Of a stretch of DNA of 64,000 nucleotides, positions 54,556 to 64,000 are shown one piece after another. The position numbers and the translations under genes were made by a program. This DNA comes from Clostridiaceae bacterium (lineage in GTDB: Bacteria > Bacillota > Clostridia > Peptostreptococcales > T1SED10-28), in NCBI GenBank assembly GCA_003553525.1, contig PWEO01000163.1:1-64000 (forward strand). The letters are read 5' to 3'. The notes below the pieces were generated by a model, which was given only the letters and a program-made list of their open reading frames with translations, searched no databases and was not told where the DNA came from. Position 1 is the stretch's first letter, and every line of letters begins with the position of its first letter.

Positions 54556-54592
54556 AAAACCCTGAAAGCCTGGTGCTTTTAGGGTTTTTTAA
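54556..54592 (+). terminator. Rho-independent terminator
   Basis: aaaaccctgaaagcc-tggt-gcttttagggtttttt. Confidence 0.85.
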
Positions 54593-54670
54593 AAAAGTTT
54601 ATAAATTTAGAGGATTCTTTGATGAAGATATCGAATTAATAAGGGTGTAGTGTAAAAAGTTACAAAGTAT

Positions 54671-54703: not shown

Positions 54704-54794
54704 TTCTCGAATGACAATGTAAGGATTTAGTTAGAATCATCCGTAGGAATTATAGAACCTATAAAATCAAAAAAAGATGAGATGAGGTGCCCTT

Positions 54795-56654
54795 ATGAAA
54801 AACTTATTAAAGAAACTCTTCAGTAACTCCAAGGATAAAAAGGAAGCGGCCGTCGGGCGATCAACGGAAGAATTTGCTTCTTTTGAGGAGGCTCTAAGGA
54901 ATGTAAAGCATCTAGCCCTAAAGGACCAGGCAGTTCAAACCGCCACTGCATTAACCCGGGGACAGGTGGTCGTAAACCCCGATGAAGAATCGAAGTTTCA
55001 AGGAATTGCCTTAGCCGCCTATCTAAAGGCCTTAAAAGGTGAGAAGGTTCATGTTATCTCGCTGAATGAAGTTGTAGCTAAACGCAGGATGGAAGAGATT
55101 GAAGGGATTATTAACGCTTTGAATTTTACCGCGGCGGTTCTTCAACAAGGCCAAAGCAATGAGGAGCGACGGGAAGCCTATAAAAAAAATGTGATTTTCG
55201 GAACGGCAGGAGCATTTATCCATGACTATTTAAAGGATCAAAAGGTACTGGATATTCAGGAACGGACTCAACCGGAAAGAGCCTTTGCCCTTGTTGAAAA
55301 GGGAGATTTAATTCTGTTGGATCAGGCTACCCGCCCTGTGGGAATTTTCGGGAAGGACGAAAAAATCATTGACAGTATCACCCTACGCAGCTATTTTTCC
55401 AATTACCGGGAGATAAGTGCTTTGGTGGATTTTGACGGTGGAGACCAACCGGAGTTTTTAGATCTTTATGGTATGGAAACTTTCAAAACACATGAAGAAA
55501 AAGGAAATCAATCCAGTGGTGAAACCCCATCAGTTCGAGTATACAAAACCTTAGAAGAAAAGCGAAGAGTGATTTTAAGGGAACTGAAAAATAGAGTAGG
55601 GTCAACAGAGCCTTTACTGGTATCCCTTCGAAATGATGAAAAAGGAGAACTACTGATTGAACATTTACAGGGAACGGGGATTGCCTTTAGCAGTCTGTTA
55701 TTAAAAGACCGTAGGGATGAAGAAACATTTGTAACAGAAGCTGTTGAAAACCAAAAAATAATGTTGGTGGTCAACCCCGTATCCCGTGGGATAGATGAAT
55801 TTTTGCCTGAAAATATTCATATTATAAGCACAGAGCGGTATATGTTAAAGCGAAACGACGAGCACTTGAAGCGGATGGCTCTTAATTCCGGAGAAAAGGG
55901 ATCCATAGAGTATATTCTATCTTTAGGTGACGATCTGTTGGATGTATTCTCCGAAGGAGAATTAGAGCAGTTCAAGGACAGCATTGTAGTAGAAAATGAT
56001 CAACCCATAGAAAATACAAAAGTGGAAGAAATGATGGACTATGTACAGCAGCGGATGAAAGAAAAAAACGCATACCTTCGCAGTTATGTGCAAAACTTTG
56101 AGTCGGTAATCCAAAGACAGCGTGAAGTCATATACTCGGAACGGAAAAAAGTCTTAACGGAAGAGGATATTAAAGAACATATCCTTAATCTTATGGAAGA
56201 CGCAATCGATGAAGAAATTGAAAAGTTCACATCCAACAGTGTATTTCCGGAAGAATGGGATTTAGAGGGCTTGGCCTCAGCACTAAGCAACAGTTTTTTA
56301 CCAAAGGATCAATTAGTGTTTCAGGATGTGGAAAATCTAACGAAAAAAGATCTAAAAGCTAACTTGATTCAAAAAGCTTCCAAGGCCTATCTTGAGCGAA
56401 AAAAAGCCCTTGGAAAAGAGCCCTTTGATTTGATGCAGCGTGTGTTATTGCTGAAAATTATTGATAGTAAGTGGTCGGAGCACTTAGAATCCATGGAAGA
56501 ACTTCGCCAGGATATGAACCTTAGAGCTTTGGGAAGACAGGACCCTATTCGGGCCTTTCAGGTGGAGGGTTTTGAACTCTTTGAAAACATGACAAAAACC
56601 ATTCCTAAGGATTTGATGCAGGCCTTATTTGCCACGGAGGAAGAAGATAAATAA
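54795..56654 (+). CDS. Degenerate SecA-like protein (predicted pseudo-ATPase lacking PPXD)
   Basis: 619 aa; SecA-like YLKALKGEKVHVISLNEVVAKR, NEERREAYKKNVIFGT, QRQREVIYSERKKVL, LLKIIDSKWSEHLESMEELRQDMNLRALGRQDPIRAFQVEGFELFENM; nucleotide-binding motifs degraded. Confidence 0.85.
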   Translation: MKNLLKKLFSNSKDKKEAAVGRSTEEFASFEEALRNVKHLALKDQAVQTATALTRGQVVVNPDEESKFQGIALAAYLKALKGEKVHVISLNEVVAKRRMEEIEGIINALNFTAAVLQQGQSNEERREAYKKNVIFGTAGAFIHDYLKDQKVLDIQERTQPERAFALVEKGDLILLDQATRPVGIFGKDEKIIDSITLRSYFSNYREISALVDFDGGDQPEFLDLYGMETFKTHEEKGNQSSGETPSVRVYKTLEEKRRVILRELKNRVGSTEPLLVSLRNDEKGELLIEHLQGTGIAFSSLLLKDRRDEETFVTEAVENQKIMLVVNPVSRGIDEFLPENIHIISTERYMLKRNDEHLKRMALNSGEKGSIEYILSLGDDLLDVFSEGELEQFKDSIVVENDQPIENTKVEEMMDYVQQRMKEKNAYLRSYVQNFESVIQRQREVIYSERKKVLTEEDIKEHILNLMEDAIDEEIEKFTSNSVFPEEWDLEGLASALSNSFLPKDQLVFQDVENLTKKDLKANLIQKASKAYLERKKALGKEPFDLMQRVLLLKIIDSKWSEHLESMEELRQDMNLRALGRQDPIRAFQVEGFELFENMTKTIPKDLMQALFATEEEDK

Positions 56655-56723: not shown

Positions 56724-58690
56724 TTGTTTCAAGTTGTGCTCTTATCCTCAATACCGATACTACAACAAAACCTGACCATGTTGGAGACCTTAGGAATTAT
56801 CAGTCTTCCTTTGTTACTGTTTATTTTGTTAATGGCAAGACAAGTACGAAAAAATAGAGAACTGAAAAAAATCAAAGAAGAATTAGAATTGTTTAAAGAG
56901 CGGTATGAACAGGTATCGGATCAAAGCGGGACCTTTATGTGGGAGGTGGACCGTAACGGGATACATACCTATGTAGACCCTACTGTGGAAAAGGTTTTGG
57001 GTTATAAGCCATCGGAAATGATCGGGAAAAGAACTTTTTATGATGATTTGTTACCCGAGGATAAAGAAGAACTGAAAGCCTTTGGTTTTAAAGTATTGGG
57101 AAAAGGCGATAAAATTAAAAATCTGGAGATTCGACAGCTCCATAAAAATGGGCATACGGTTTATACTCTTACCAGCGGTTTGCCGATTTATGATAAAAAG
57201 GGCCAAGTAATCGGTTATAGGGCTACTGATACGGATATAACCGGTAGAAAAGAAATTGAACTTTCTTTAAAGGAAAGCGAAGAGAAATATAAACTGCTGT
57301 TTGAAAATGCCGTAGAGGGGATTGCAGTTTTACAACAGGGGAAAATCAAAATCAGCAACCCCATGCTTCGAACCATTTTAAACGCCTCTGAGAGGGAGCT
57401 TAGAGAAAAAAACATACTTGAACTGATACACCGTGAAGATCGGGAAATGGTGGCAAATTTACATCGGGAGCGGATAAAGGGCAATAAGGACCAGATAATC
57501 GAAGAGTTTAGGGCCCTTCGAATGGATGGAGCGGTTCGCTGGATTGAATCCAAGGGGATCCGAATTATGTGGAACGGTGCCCCGGCATCCTTGAATTTTC
57601 TTACGGATATTACCGAGCGAAAGGAGACGGAAAAAAATATCCTTCATCTTAGCTACCATGACCAATTAACAGGAATTTACAATCGCCGGTTCTTCGAAGA
57701 GGAACTCAATCGTTTGGACAATCCTAGAAACTTTCCCTTATCCATTGTTATCGTTGACGTCAATGGATTAAAGCTTTTCAACGACGGCTTTGGTCATAAA
57801 GCTGGGGATGAGTTGATCGTTACAGTAGCTCAACTATTGGATGAGGAAAGTCGAGGGAACGATGTTGCCGCCCGTATCGGAGGGGACGAATTTGTGGTCT
57901 TGATGCCCGACACTGATGAAAAACAAGTAAAAGTATTTGAAAAACGGTTCCAAAAAGTCTTAGCAAATAAAAGGGTAGCAGGAATTCCTATTTCCATATC
58001 CTTGGGTTATGCAACGAAAATTGATGAAAGTATGGCTATTCAGGACATCTTTAAACGTGCAGAAGAAGGAATGTATCGTAGTAAGATGGACAGTAGCCCA
58101 AAGTATAAAAGAAAAACTTTAGATCGCATTATGAAAGAGGTATTTAACAGAGTCCATTGGGAAGAAAGCCATGCAGAAAATACCAGAGAGCTGGCCCGGA
58201 TATTTGGGGAAGTCCTGGGTTATAATCAGAAAGATGTTGAAGATTTGGAACAAGCGGGATACTATCATGACATCGGAAAAATTGGTGTGGGGCGTCAAAT
58301 ATTAATGAAAAATACATTGCTGGAGCCTGAGGAATTAAGAGTTGTGGAAAGGCATCCGGAAGTAGGTTATCATCTGTTAAATACCACAAATGAAACCTTT
58401 TCCATCGCGGAAATCGTTTTACACCATGATGAAAAATGGGATGGAAGCGGGTACCCGCAGGGAATAAAAGGAAAAAAATCCCTGAAAAAGCACGGATTAT
58501 ATCCATAGTGGAAGTTTATGAAAATTTAACCCATGATCGGCCTTATCAGAGGACCCTAAGTAGAAATGAAGCGGTGGAGGTGTTGGTATCCGAGAAGGAA
58601 AAATCCTTTGATCCGGAGCTGGTGACTATTTTAATCGAAGAGGTGCTGCCCCGGATGGAAGAGGAAGAAGTCATCAAAAAGTCCAAGTAA
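56724..58690 (+). pseudogene. PAS-PAS-GGDEF-HD-GYP signalling protein, frame disrupted at an A7 tract near 58472
   Basis: ORF 56724..58508 (TTG start after aggaggagatt) contains RIGGDEFVVL, HDIGKIGV, HHDEKWDGSGYPQGIKG then shifts; the -1 frame continues IPEKARIISIVEVYENLTHDRPYQRTLSRNEAVEVL to 58690. Confidence 0.8.
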
Positions 58691-59208: not shown

Positions 59209-60894
59209 ATGATCGCATTGTTAGCAATTTTACCGATTTTAACGACAATTATTTTAATGGTGGTTTTCAACTGGCCTGCGAAAAAAGTTATGCCCATCGC
59301 CTGGATCATCGCCGTTATATTAGCTGCAACTTACTGGGAAATGCCCATGGATTGGCTAGTTGGGGCCAGTATTTTCGGGGGACTTAGTGCCTTCAATATA
59401 CTAATCATCGTTTTTGGAGCCATTGTTTTAATGAATACCTTGAAAAACAGTGGAGCCATTAAGACAATAAATAAAACCTTTCATGGAATCAGTCCTGACC
59501 GACGGATTCAAGCCATAATTATAGCTTTTCTTTTTGGAGGATTTATTGAAGGAGCAGCAGGCTTTGGAACTCCCGCAGCCTTGGCAGGGCCTCTGATGGT
59601 GGGACTTGGGTTTCCCCCTTTGGGCGCCGCAATGCTTGCTCTTATCGCCAATAGTACACCGGTAAGTTTTGGGGCCGTAGGAACACCGATAATCGGTGGA
59701 GTATCCTCGGTTCTAGGTTCTGCTGAAATCAGTAGTCAGATTGCCGATGCAGGATTGAGTCAAGCAGAGTTTCTACATCAAGTAGGAATTTGGGCAGCAA
59801 TTCCCCATGCAGTGGTTGGAGTATTCATGCCTTTGGCCATTGCCATGATCCTTACGAAATTTTTCGGCGAAAACCGTAGTTTTAAAGAGGGATTAGAAGT
59901 GGCACCCTTTGCTATCTTCGCAGGATTAGCATACATGGTACCTTACGTTTTTATCGCTGTAGTATTTGGTCCGGAACTGCCTTCCTTAGCCGGCGGACTA
60001 ATCGCCATTGCGATTTGTGTAACTGCTGCTAAAAATGGTTTCTTGCAACCGAAAAATGCTTGGGATTTTGCTAACCGTACGAAATGGGACAGTTCATGGA
60101 TCGGAACTTTAGAAGTACCCGATGTAGATCCGGAAGATGTGCAAGAAGAAAAGCTAAAAATTTCTCCTTTCAATGCATGGCTTCCCTACATTTTAGTATC
60201 TTTGATTTTAGTAATTACTAGAATTCCTGCCTTTGGAATACAGGGATTTTTACGAGGACAGTTTATACGATGGGAAGAAATTCTTGGAACCGGACTAACC
60301 TATACATTGCAGTATCTCTATCTTCCTGGAACCATTCCCTTTATACTAGTGGCAGTACTTACCATATTCCTGCATAAAATGCCGCTGGAAGATGTTAAAA
60401 GAACTTGGAGTGATTCCATCAAACAGGTAATTCCTGCAGCCATCGCTTTGGTTTTCGCCATAGGTATGGTACAGGTAATGTTAAACTCGGGTAACAATCT
60501 CTCGGGATACGACGGAATGATGGTGGCTTTATCTACTGCTGCCGCCAATGCCTTTCAAGGAGTTTGGCCTCTGTTCTCGCCCTTTATCGGAGTACTTGGA
60601 GCTTTTATGTCGGGAAGTAACACCACCTCGAATATATTGTTCTCCGGATTCCAGTATGGAGTTGCGGAACAAATTGAAGCCTCACGAATTATTATTCTTG
60701 GCACACAAGTAGTAGGAGGCGCCGCCGGAAATATGATTAGTGTTCATAATGTGGTTGCTGCCTGTACCACCGTGGGAGTATTGGGAAGCGAAGGAAAAGT
60801 TATTAGAAGGAACGCCGTGCCTGCCTTTATCTATACTATAATTGTAGGTATTGTAGCATATATATCCATTGGGCTTTTCCCGAACATATTCTAA
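59209..60894 (+). CDS. lctP: L-lactate permease (LctP family)
   Basis: 561 aa; [66 protein letters not shown]. Confidence 0.95.
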
Positions 60895-61057
60895 AAAACC
60901 ACAAATAGGTTAAACTAACATCATAAAAAAATGGTATCAACAAGGAGTTCCCATAATATGAAAACGGCTGAGCAGCCACTAACATTTAGTTCCAGGGATG
61001 AAATATGTTATAATATATAGAGTTCATTATTCTGACTAAACAAGTGGAGGGAACAAA

Positions 61058-61801
61058 ATGTTTAAGCCGATAAAAAGCAAAAAAATATATGAAGTGGTAA
61101 TAGAAGAAATTCAACAGCAAATCATTGCCGGCACCTTGAATAGAGGAGATAAACTTCCTACGGAGCGGGAGCTTGCAGAACAGCTGGATGTCAGCAGAAC
61201 CTCGGTAAGAGAGGCTATGAGAACCCTAGAGGTTTTAGGCATTATCCAGGTGAAGCAGGGGGGCGGAAATTTTATTAAAGAGCGATTCGACGATGCTTTA
61301 GTGGAGCCCCTCTCTATGATGTTTGTGCTAAATGAGAGTCACCCTCGAGAAATCGTAGATCTTAGACAAATTATTGAAGTGGAAAGCGCTTATCGTGCGG
61401 CGGAAAGAATTACCGATGAGGATATCGAAGAACTCCGGGGAATTGTGGAGCAGCTAAGAATTCAAACGAATCTTAAAAATGAGAGCATGAGCGTGAGATA
61501 TGACAAAGCTTTTCATTACAGTATTTGCAGAATTGCAAACAATTTTCTATTCTCCAATATTCTTAATATGCTGTCGAATTTAATGGATACCTTAATTGAA
61601 GATGCCCGAGGAATTATTCTTTTAAAAGAGGAAAATCAGCAGGTACTGATCGAACAACACGAAAAAATCTTCCATGCATTGGAAAAGAGAGATTCTAAAG
61701 CCGCAGCCGCTGCCATGCGAGAGCATATCACATTGATTATTGACGAATATCTAAGCAATATTAAAGAAAGCGATAAATTTTCCAACAGAAAAACCTGGTA
61801 G
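61058..61801 (+). CDS. GntR/FCD-family transcriptional regulator (LldR-like)
   Basis: 247 aa; IAGTLNRGDKLPTERELAEQLDVSRTSVREAMRTLEVLGII plus FCD domain. Confidence 0.92.
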   Translation: MFKPIKSKKIYEVVIEEIQQQIIAGTLNRGDKLPTERELAEQLDVSRTSVREAMRTLEVLGIIQVKQGGGNFIKERFDDALVEPLSMMFVLNESHPREIVDLRQIIEVESAYRAAERITDEDIEELRGIVEQLRIQTNLKNESMSVRYDKAFHYSICRIANNFLFSNILNMLSNLMDTLIEDARGIILLKEENQQVLIEQHEKIFHALEKRDSKAAAAAMREHITLIIDEYLSNIKESDKFSNRKTW

Positions 61802-61822
61802 AAAAAACAAAGGAGGATTTAC

Positions 61823-63100
61823 ATGAAACCGATAAGAATTCCTTACGGTAAGGGAGTAATTGAAAAAGATTTCAGTCCCTATAATGTGATCGATGTGTTA
61901 GAATCCAAAGCTCATCACTTTAAGCCCGTTCTTTCGGAAAAAGAGATTGTGGAAAAGGCCTTGGATAATCCAATAGCTTCCCAATCTTTAGAAGAACAGG
62001 TAAAGGGAAAAAACAACATGGTCATCATTACCAGCGATCATACCCGACCGGTACCTAGCCACATAACCCTACCGATTCTTCTTAAACGAATAAGAGCCGT
62101 AAATCCCGATATTGATATAAAAATTCTTATCGCAACGGGATATCACCGTGCCACCACAAAAGAAGAAATGTTGGATAAGTTCGGCAAGGAGATTGTGGAA
62201 AATGAAATTTTGATCAACCATATCTCCAAGGATGAAGAAAGTTTAGACTACGTTGGCGTACTACCTTCCGGCGGGGATTTATGGCTAAACAAAGTAGCCT
62301 TGGAAACGGAACTGCTTATTGCGGAGGGCTTCATAGAACCTCATTTTTTCGCAGGGTTCTCGGGAGGCAGAAAAAGTGTGTTGCCGGGAGTTGCCGGTGC
62401 AAAAACCGTACTGGCAAACCACTGCTCCGAATTTATCGCCAGTGATTATGCTAGAACCGGAATACTTGAGAAAAATCCCATTCATAAGGACATGGTCTTT
62501 GCCGCAGACAAAGCAGGACTTAGTTTTATCCTAAACGTGGTTATAGATAGTGAGAAGAAGATTATCGAAGCCTTTGCAGGCCATAGTGAAAAAGCCCATG
62601 AAAAAGGTTGTGAATTTGTTTTAGAACAGTCCAGTATCGACGAGACACCGAAGTCCGATATTGTCATCACTTCAAACGGAGGATATCCCTTAGATCAAAA
62701 TATCTATCAAGCGGTAAAGGGAATGACGGCTGCAGAGCCCTGTTGTAACCCCAAAGGAATTATCATCATGGTTGCGGCCTGTAACGACGGTCACGGTGGG
62801 GAAGATTTCTACCAATCCATGGCAGACGCATCATCACCAAGAGAGGTTCTGGATAGTGTGATGCAAATTCCTCGAGGAGAGACGAAACCCGATCAATGGG
62901 AATATCAGATACTTGCCCGGATCCTGGACCGTTTTACCATTATTATGGTTACGGACCAATGCGATGCGAAAATGATCAAAGACATGCATATGGAACATGC
63001 CTATACTTTAGATGAAGCCTTGGAAAGAGCTCTTAAAGAAAAAGGGGCGAAGGCATCCATCACTGTAATTCCCGACGGGGTATCCGTAATTGTTAAGTAA
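61823..63100 (+). CDS. larA: Nickel-dependent lactate racemase (LarA)
   Basis: 425 aa; ITSDHTRPVPSHITLPILL; IATGYHRATTKEEM; EPHFFAGFSGGRKSVLPGVAG. Confidence 0.93.
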   Translation: MKPIRIPYGKGVIEKDFSPYNVIDVLESKAHHFKPVLSEKEIVEKALDNPIASQSLEEQVKGKNNMVIITSDHTRPVPSHITLPILLKRIRAVNPDIDIKILIATGYHRATTKEEMLDKFGKEIVENEILINHISKDEESLDYVGVLPSGGDLWLNKVALETELLIAEGFIEPHFFAGFSGGRKSVLPGVAGAKTVLANHCSEFIASDYARTGILEKNPIHKDMVFAADKAGLSFILNVVIDSEKKIIEAFAGHSEKAHEKGCEFVLEQSSIDETPKSDIVITSNGGYPLDQNIYQAVKGMTAAEPCCNPKGIIIMVAACNDGHGGEDFYQSMADASSPREVLDSVMQIPRGETKPDQWEYQILARILDRFTIIMVTDQCDAKMIKDMHMEHAYTLDEALERALKEKGAKASITVIPDGVSVIVK

Positions 63101-63180
63101 CACCCGAAAAAAACTTCTTTATTATCCGTCAACAAGGAAACAGACCATAAATAATACAGAGCAATAAAAAATTTAACCAT

Positions 63181-63204
63181 ATTGGTTGGACCATAATACC
63201 AAAT
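63181..63204 (+). promoter_or_regulatory. Putative LldR-type operator 3
   Basis: ATTGGT-TGGACCATAAT-ACCAAAT, same half-sites and N11 spacing as operator 1. Confidence 0.6.
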
Positions 63205-63229
63205 CGAGAGAAGAGAGGAAGGATCACCG

Positions 63230-64000
63230 ATGAAAACCTTAGTATGTATTAAACAAGTGCCGGGAACAACGGAAGTACAAGTGGATGAAAATGGAAACCT
63301 TATTCGATCGGGAATTGACTCGAAAATGAATCCCTATGATCTTTATGCCATTGAAAGTGCCCTGAAAATAAAAGAAAAAATGGGGGGAGAGATCAATGTC
63401 ATGACCATGGGGCCTCCCCAAGCAAAGGAAGTAATAAGGGAAGCCTATATGATGGGGATTGATAAGGGATTTCTTCTTACGGATCGCCGTTTTGCCGGGG
63501 CCGATGTACTGGCTACTTCTTACACCTTAGCCCAAGGAGCTTATCAAGCCGGGGACTTCGATTTAATTATTTGCGGAAAACAAACAACCGACGGCGATAC
63601 CGCCCAAGTAGGACCGGAAATGGCGGAGTATTTGGGAATTCCCCACGTGGCCAATGTAAAGGGTATTGTGGAGAGTAAAGAAAAGTCCATCATTCTGGAA
63701 GTGGAAATGCCCACAACGATTCAAACCGTAGAGGTAACCTATCCCTGTTTAATTACGGTGGAAAAAGGAATTTTTCAGCCTCGACTGCCTTCCTATCGAT
63801 TGAAGAAAAAAACCAAGTATCAAGAAATCCATGAGCTAACCTTAGATAACTTTAAAGATAAAAATGAAAAACGATACGGATTATCCGGATCTCCCACACA
63901 AGTGGAGGAAATATTCCCACCGGAGCAGAATACTACCAGTGAACGCTGGGAAGGGGAGCATCTGGGGACCAAGTTATATGATCAGTTAATCGACTTAAAA
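63230..64000 (+). CDS. etfB: Electron transfer flavoprotein beta subunit (EtfB/LctB-like), truncated by window end
   Basis: [65 protein letters not shown]; no stop before 64000. Confidence 0.93.

Follow-up and report, generated by a model that had tools for sequence, protein, structure and literature searches.

The window analysed here was a stretch of 64,000 nucleotides from a Clostridiaceae bacterium (genome G000), and it carried a paralogue of secA on the forward strand. The upstream elements, the motif sites, and the downstream membrane gene described below were on the same strand. The open reading frame started with ATG at 54795, its stop codon ended at 56654, and the product had 619 amino acids and a mass of 71 kDa. 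The gene was compared with its counterparts in four sister species of the same genus (G001 to G004). In all five species, it was placed behind a gene of the acyl-CoA-dehydratase-activase type coding for 1420 amino acids. A gene for a membrane PAS-PAS-GGDEF-HD-GYP protein was located 70 bp downstream (56724 to 58508). A lactate-permease-like gene, a gene for a GntR-type regulator, a LarA-like gene, and electron-transfer-flavoprotein genes followed in a row from 59209 to 64000. The order from the lactate-permease-like gene to the electron-transfer-flavoprotein genes was also seen near the paralogue in G001 (L038), and the row was not present in the stretches examined beside the paralogue in G002 and G003.

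Pfam models were used to determine the domain composition of the product. Three SecA domains were found above the cut-off, and together with the top PDB matches by sequence and by predicted fold, which were all SecA, they assigned the protein to the SecA family. A truncated SecA_DEAD domain covered residues 17-187 (E 1.9e-29, 103 bits), a weak P-loop_SecA match covered residues 248-340 (58 bits), and SecA_SW covered residues 404-614 (E 9.5e-47, 160 bits). A sequence-only reading of this DNA had described a SecA-derived protein with an intact frame and a well-kept scaffold and wing, and the HMM search agreed with it. There was no match to SecA_PP_bind or SEC-C; the genus's own canonical SecA carried every one of these five domains. 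The identity between the paralogue and canonical SecA was 34-35% across the aligned length. In the phmmer alignment, the paralogue was matched to residues 62-229 and 350-779 of B. subtilis SecA. This meant that about 120 residues, corresponding to the preprotein cross-linking domain (PPXD), were absent between residues 189 and 190 of the paralogue, and the excision site was located at 55350 to 55355.

Four blocks were absent compared to the genus's canonical SecA. These were residues 23-62, residues 227-347 (the PPXD), residues 500-562, which formed the 63-residue variable insert of NBD2 (site at 55812 to 55817), and residues 842-891, which comprised the linker and the zinc tail. The losses of the PPXD and the zinc tail had both been listed in the sequence-only reading. 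Every entry of its list was confirmed, but the list was incomplete because the blocks 23-62 and 500-562 were also deleted. The N-terminal basic and hydrophobic helix MKNLLKKLFSNS (54795 to 54830) was retained in the alignment, and a helix at residues 2-10 was modelled with low confidence. In SecA, this helix is the membrane and SecY anchor.

The motifs required for ATP hydrolysis were then tabulated in the five orthologues. The Walker A motif MKTGEGKT was replaced by NPDEESKF, NPDQESKF, NPDPQWKF, NSDRESRF, or NGDNSTTL, and the degenerate position in the window (VNPDEESK, 54972 to 54995) varied among orthologues. Walker A had been considered lost, which was correct for the glycines and the threonine. 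However, the lysine was still present in three of the five. The variation of the Walker A position from species to species was as expected of a site that is no longer used. The DEVD box was changed to EKGD, EKAD, or EQGD, with loss of the acidic pair including the catalytic glutamate; EKGD was located at 55296 to 55307. Motif III changed from MTGTA to (L/W)VDFD, and motif V from TNMAGRGTDI to VNPVSRGxxE (VNPVSRG at 55770 to 55790). In motif VI, RGRAGRQGDPG was replaced by KRMALNSGEKG-like residues, so that the arginines, including the arginine finger, were replaced; this region was HLKRMALNSGEKG at 55863 to 55901. The 'TER' residues and the 'RG' residues of motif V were retained. Thus, of the features that define a SecA translocation ATPase, Walker A, the DEVD box, and the motif VI arginine finger were absent from all five orthologues, and the PPXD clamp was absent from the paralogue. 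The proposed loss of Walker A, the DEAD box, and the arginine finger was borne out. From these replacements, we infer that the paralogue has lost ATPase activity. In addition, the new residues at the former motifs II, III, and V (EKGDLILLDQ-like, VDFD, and VNPVSRG) were invariant, which indicated that the interface between NBD1 and NBD2 seems to have been re-engineered and not left to drift.

Structure prediction was performed with AlphaFold2. The model obtained with 36 aligned sequences, which replaced an earlier model with 8 sequences and a pLDDT of 69, had a mean pLDDT of 84 and a pTM of 0.82; canonical homologues in the alignment biased it towards the SecA fold, so the model was a test of compatibility and not of independence. 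Strands 181-185 and 191-196 were directly joined in the model and formed a hairpin at the excision site. The PPXD is borne by a two-strand stalk in SecA (PMC7503281). The predicted fold therefore corresponded to a SecA from which the PPXD had been removed at the two strands of the stalk, consistent with the expected deletion. The best PDB matches in Foldseek were all SecA, including the open form of B. subtilis SecA (1tf2, TMq 0.82) and the SecA chain of the complex with SecY (6itc, TMq 0.81).

The best conserved part of the paralogue was the two-helix finger region at residues 546-604 (56430 to 56606), with helices at 541-577 and 584-611 in the model. The finger showed 54% identity to the genus's canonical SecA, compared to 30-33% for the NBDs. 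Among the orthologues, 78% of the finger positions were invariant, compared to 50-55% in the NBDs, and dN was lowest in the C-terminal scaffold and finger region. The finger tip (residue 579) was Met or Leu in the paralogues and Ile in the genus's own SecA. In the SecA-SecY complex, the finger enters the funnel of the SecY channel, a groove on the helical scaffold domain (HSD) receives the SecY C-tail, and loop 6/7 is surrounded by the finger and the PPXD (PMC6599042). The clamp that holds the chain consists of the PPXD and the scaffold, and its closure requires the PPXD (PMC6599042). Since the finger was kept and the clamp and the PPXD contact were lost, the paralogue may still dock but not hold or push a chain. 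Its affinity for SecY may be low because the PPXD contact with loop 8/9, a strong contact with SecY, was gone. The HSD arginine R553 of B. subtilis SecA touches lipid (PMC6599042), and all five orthologues had Glu at this position. This change suggested that any docking pose of the paralogue is modified, and it argued against an unchanged membrane pose.

Intact orthologues with 69-82% identity were present in each of the five species sampled from the genus. Profile searches covered 395 genomes from the order and 399 from the phylum (about 790) and gave no further copy; members scored 1e-180 or better, and the next best matches, at 3e-27, were canonical SecAs. The activase gene was kept in the sister genus (77% identity) without the paralogue beside it, in a genome (G005) that was 80% complete. 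This genome gave no SecA match of any kind, most likely because of incompleteness. The GTDB species scan returned three metagenome-assembled genomes of the same group and one distant match, L048, which was a second SecA of the ordinary type, its motifs intact. The CSSed isolate labels of the three metagenome-assembled genomes suggest that they came from a Siberian soda-lake sediment project (PMC6146748). A pattern scan of IMG/VR gave no relative of the paralogue, and given this and the lack of copies in the order and phylum genomes, a horizontal or viral origin was rejected. An anti-phage system was also dismissed, as PADLOC gave no match. The paralogue had a dN/dS of 0.06-0.13 at dS values close to or exceeding 1; for canonical SecA, dN/dS was 0.05-0.06. 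In a simulation, a gene free of constraint acquired about 9 in-frame stops by the time 10% of its sequence had changed. The paralogue was therefore not decaying and is a real gene kept intact by selection.

Two other second SecAs were observed in the order. G007 had a divergent second SecA of 752-767 amino acids with intact motifs (L075:1033-3288) beside two radical-SAM genes; this protein may be an export ATPase devoted to a modified peptide. In G026, a second SecA of 1103 amino acids (L072:1383-4691) had a C-terminal extension of about 300 residues, and its gene adjoined that of an exported surface-type protein.

Maximum-likelihood trees were used to examine the origin of the paralogue. The five paralogues formed a group with the canonical SecA of the genus itself, supported at 99/100 for full-length sequences, and the same grouping was obtained at 100/100 for the scaffold and wing only, with long rows left out. 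They did not group with the other second SecAs in the trees, which were few and did not include reference SecA2 from Mycobacterium or Listeria. The stem of the paralogue group was 7.2 changes per site at full length and 2.5 for the scaffold and wing. With the root position and the long branch as caveats, the simplest reading is a lineage-specific duplication of the housekeeping secA, after which the PPXD was probably excised and catalysis lost. By phylogeny, canonical SecA (B. subtilis 1tf5 and 6itc, and the genus's 891-residue protein) would be the direct ancestor. The paralogue shared with it the order and fold of NBD1, NBD2, scaffold, wing, and finger as well as the N-terminal helix, but differed in having no ATPase motifs, PPXD clamp, NBD2 insert, or zinc tail.

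The complete canonical secA of 891 amino acids was located elsewhere in the genome, so the paralogue was not the sole secA. Two of the outcomes that the sequence-only reading had named as refuting it, absent or stop-ridden orthologues and a genome with no other secA, were thus checked and did not occur. secY was present as a single copy. A second secY was absent from the genome and no Sec genes were located near the paralogue, in agreement with the earlier remark on secY2 and accessory Sec genes; this did not correspond to a SecA2-SecY2 accessory system. A third match to the SecA_DEAD model, on contig C161, was by its sequence a RecG-like helicase and not another SecA.

The upstream region was compared among the five species. 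A terminator-like hairpin with a T-run (54557 to 54592), read in the sequence and conserved in all five, ended the upstream activase unit; the consensus terminator scan gave no call there. A single 30-nt block of the form RNAGGAWTC-N12-ATCGAATTA, situated between this terminator and the ATG, was kept in all five species, and the flanking DNA had diverged. In the window, it corresponded to a putative sigma-H-type promoter, AGAGGATTC-N12-ATCGAATTA, at 54609 to 54638, 157 nt before the ATG. Compared to RNAGGAWWW-N11/12-RNNGAATWW, which we take to be the sigma-H consensus, the block was one base off, with C at the third W position in the -35 element. The ribosome-binding site ATGAGGTG was located at 54782 to 54789, and its GAGGTG was conserved in the five species.

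The motif arose in shuffled sequence with a frequency of about 0.0005 per species, and it occurred 75 times genome-wide, compared to 35 for the reversed control. Intergenic sigma-H-type motifs were also found ahead of an ftsE-like gene and of dnaG in the dnaG-sigA operon; in B. subtilis, this operon is among the known targets of sigma-H. The genome contained sigH (over the cut-off) and spo0A, both known sigma-H genes in B. subtilis; no clear copy of the motif was found in the stretches examined upstream of these two, which counted against the sigma-H reading. A further sigma-H-type motif (G000:C58:22-47, L110) was located 149 nt before a gene for a 199-residue membrane protein that precedes canonical secA. 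The two SecAs might therefore be co-regulated in part. The core of the Spo0A box is TGTCGAA (PMC3485338), and the conserved block read TATCGAA, which resembled it without an exact match. A Spo0A box may thus be an alternative reading of the block. With either regulator, sigma-H or Spo0A, expression would fall at the transition to stationary phase or at sporulation.

The sequence-only reading had offered several functions, among them a SecA or SecYEG regulator, a decoy or adaptor, and a scaffold recruited to the membrane. Since the finger was the best-kept part and the sigma-H-type promoter was conserved, these guesses appeared to narrow to a modulator of SecYEG or SecA at the transition to stationary phase. 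The reading that we preferred, with somewhat less than an even chance of being right, is that a genus-specific duplicate of secA, now non-catalytic, docks on SecYEG and attenuates, caps, or idles Sec export under a sigma-H switch. The two RecA-like domains were kept in the paralogue as a scaffold, together with the helical scaffold and wing and the finger. Sigma-H would switch it on at the transition to stationary phase or in early sporulation. The protein would then dock on the cytoplasmic face of SecYEG through the finger, the scaffold groove, and the N-terminal membrane helix, alone or together with canonical SecA. Because it presumably could neither bind and hydrolyse ATP nor hold a preprotein, the translocon would be occupied or re-tuned rather than driven, and the paralogue would serve at that stage as an attenuator, a cap, or an 'idling' factor for Sec export. 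The specific version in which an ATP-dead SecA plugs or caps SecYEG with its finger as a 'translocon idling factor' at the stationary transition or sporulation is rather unlikely; such a factor would be to the Sec system what a hibernation factor is to the ribosome.

It is also possible, but on the unlikely side, that the paralogue is a cytosolic heterodimer partner or decoy. It would bind canonical SecA by its scaffold, wing, and finger surfaces without touching SecYEG and would change the oligomeric state, localisation, or substrate choice of SecA. This was consistent with the well-kept scaffold and wing, and SecA dimerises through several surfaces, with the B. subtilis (2ibm, 1m6n) and T. 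thermophilus (2ipc) dimers among the structural matches. However, the most constrained part was the finger that enters SecY. In addition, the zinc tail was gone, and the dimer contacts of canonical SecA that use the PPXD were lost.

We considered it improbable that the paralogue is an export adaptor or chaperone, which would bind some preproteins or nascent chains and pass them to canonical SecA and SecYEG. The strictly conserved new residues (those at motifs II, III, and V, and TERYML) could be taken as a new binding surface that replaced the ATP site. However, the paralogue had no PPXD, on which both the clamp and the groove for the signal peptide depend, and no client or linked exported gene was apparent.

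A repurposed scaffold outside export, for example one that anchors the PAS-GGDEF-HD-GYP protein at the membrane, was judged slightly less probable again. The two genes were adjacent in G000, G002, G003, and G004. However, the neighbouring gene was frame-broken within its HD-GYP domain in G000, where it continues in another frame at 58436 to 58690, and it was broken differently in G002. It was whole in G003 and cut by the contig end in G004. In G001, it was absent, and the paralogue ended in its own terminator, as read in the sequence. The paralogue was intact everywhere. Since one species had no such neighbour and two had it with a broken frame, both the scaffold idea tied to this c-di-GMP gene and the view of the GGDEF gene as an obligate partner were weakened.

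An active translocase of the SecA2 type with unusual ATP use was very improbable. SecA2 of Firmicutes and Actinobacteria, such as C. difficile SecA2 (6sxh, PMC7503281), resembles the paralogue as a second SecA beside the housekeeping one, with no C-terminal tail and only one secY in the genome. SecA2 proteins hydrolyse ATP and possess a PPXD (PMC7503281), whereas the paralogue had lost the ATP motifs and the PPXD and was placed on another branch, with the genus's own SecA. The matches to SecA2 models were far below threshold, at 184 bits against a cut-off of 930 (TIGR03714), 296 against 1085 (TIGR04397), 188 against 1100 (NF012136), and 179 against 725 (TIGR04221). The catalytic Glu, the Walker A glycines and threonine, and the arginine finger were absent in all five orthologues. 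A decaying pseudogene or an assembly artefact, which the loss of every ATPase motif and the metagenomic assembly of most genomes might suggest, was hardly credible given five independent intact frames in the same place, a dN/dS of about 0.1, and conserved promoter, ribosome-binding site, and synteny.

The paralogue was also compared with other rearranged or inactive proteins. The secondary SecA_DEAD proteins of PVC bacteria are likewise SecA-derived with a rearranged domain set, but they keep the DEAD motor and have no scaffold or wing (PMC4452313). The paralogue appeared to be the reverse, with the scaffold and wing kept and the motor apparently dead. Pseudoenzyme regulators are dead paralogues of essential enzymes that are held by purifying selection. 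The paralogue resembled them as a putatively dead SecA copy under such selection. An ATP-dead SecA without a PPXD had been thought undescribed, and no report of a non-catalytic SecA was found in open-access full texts. Relative to that literature, the putative SecA pseudo-ATPase would be an undescribed kind of SecA.

SecA is usually treated as one essential motor or as two active motors. A SecA that is kept by selection without motor and clamp separates docking, by the finger and scaffold, from driving, by ATP and the clamp. If the paralogue binds SecYEG, cells would tune export with a pseudo-motor, and the protein would be a minimal tool for what the two-helix finger does alone. Both the sigma-H-type promoter and the haloalkaline setting suggest a deliberate re-setting of export once growth ceases.
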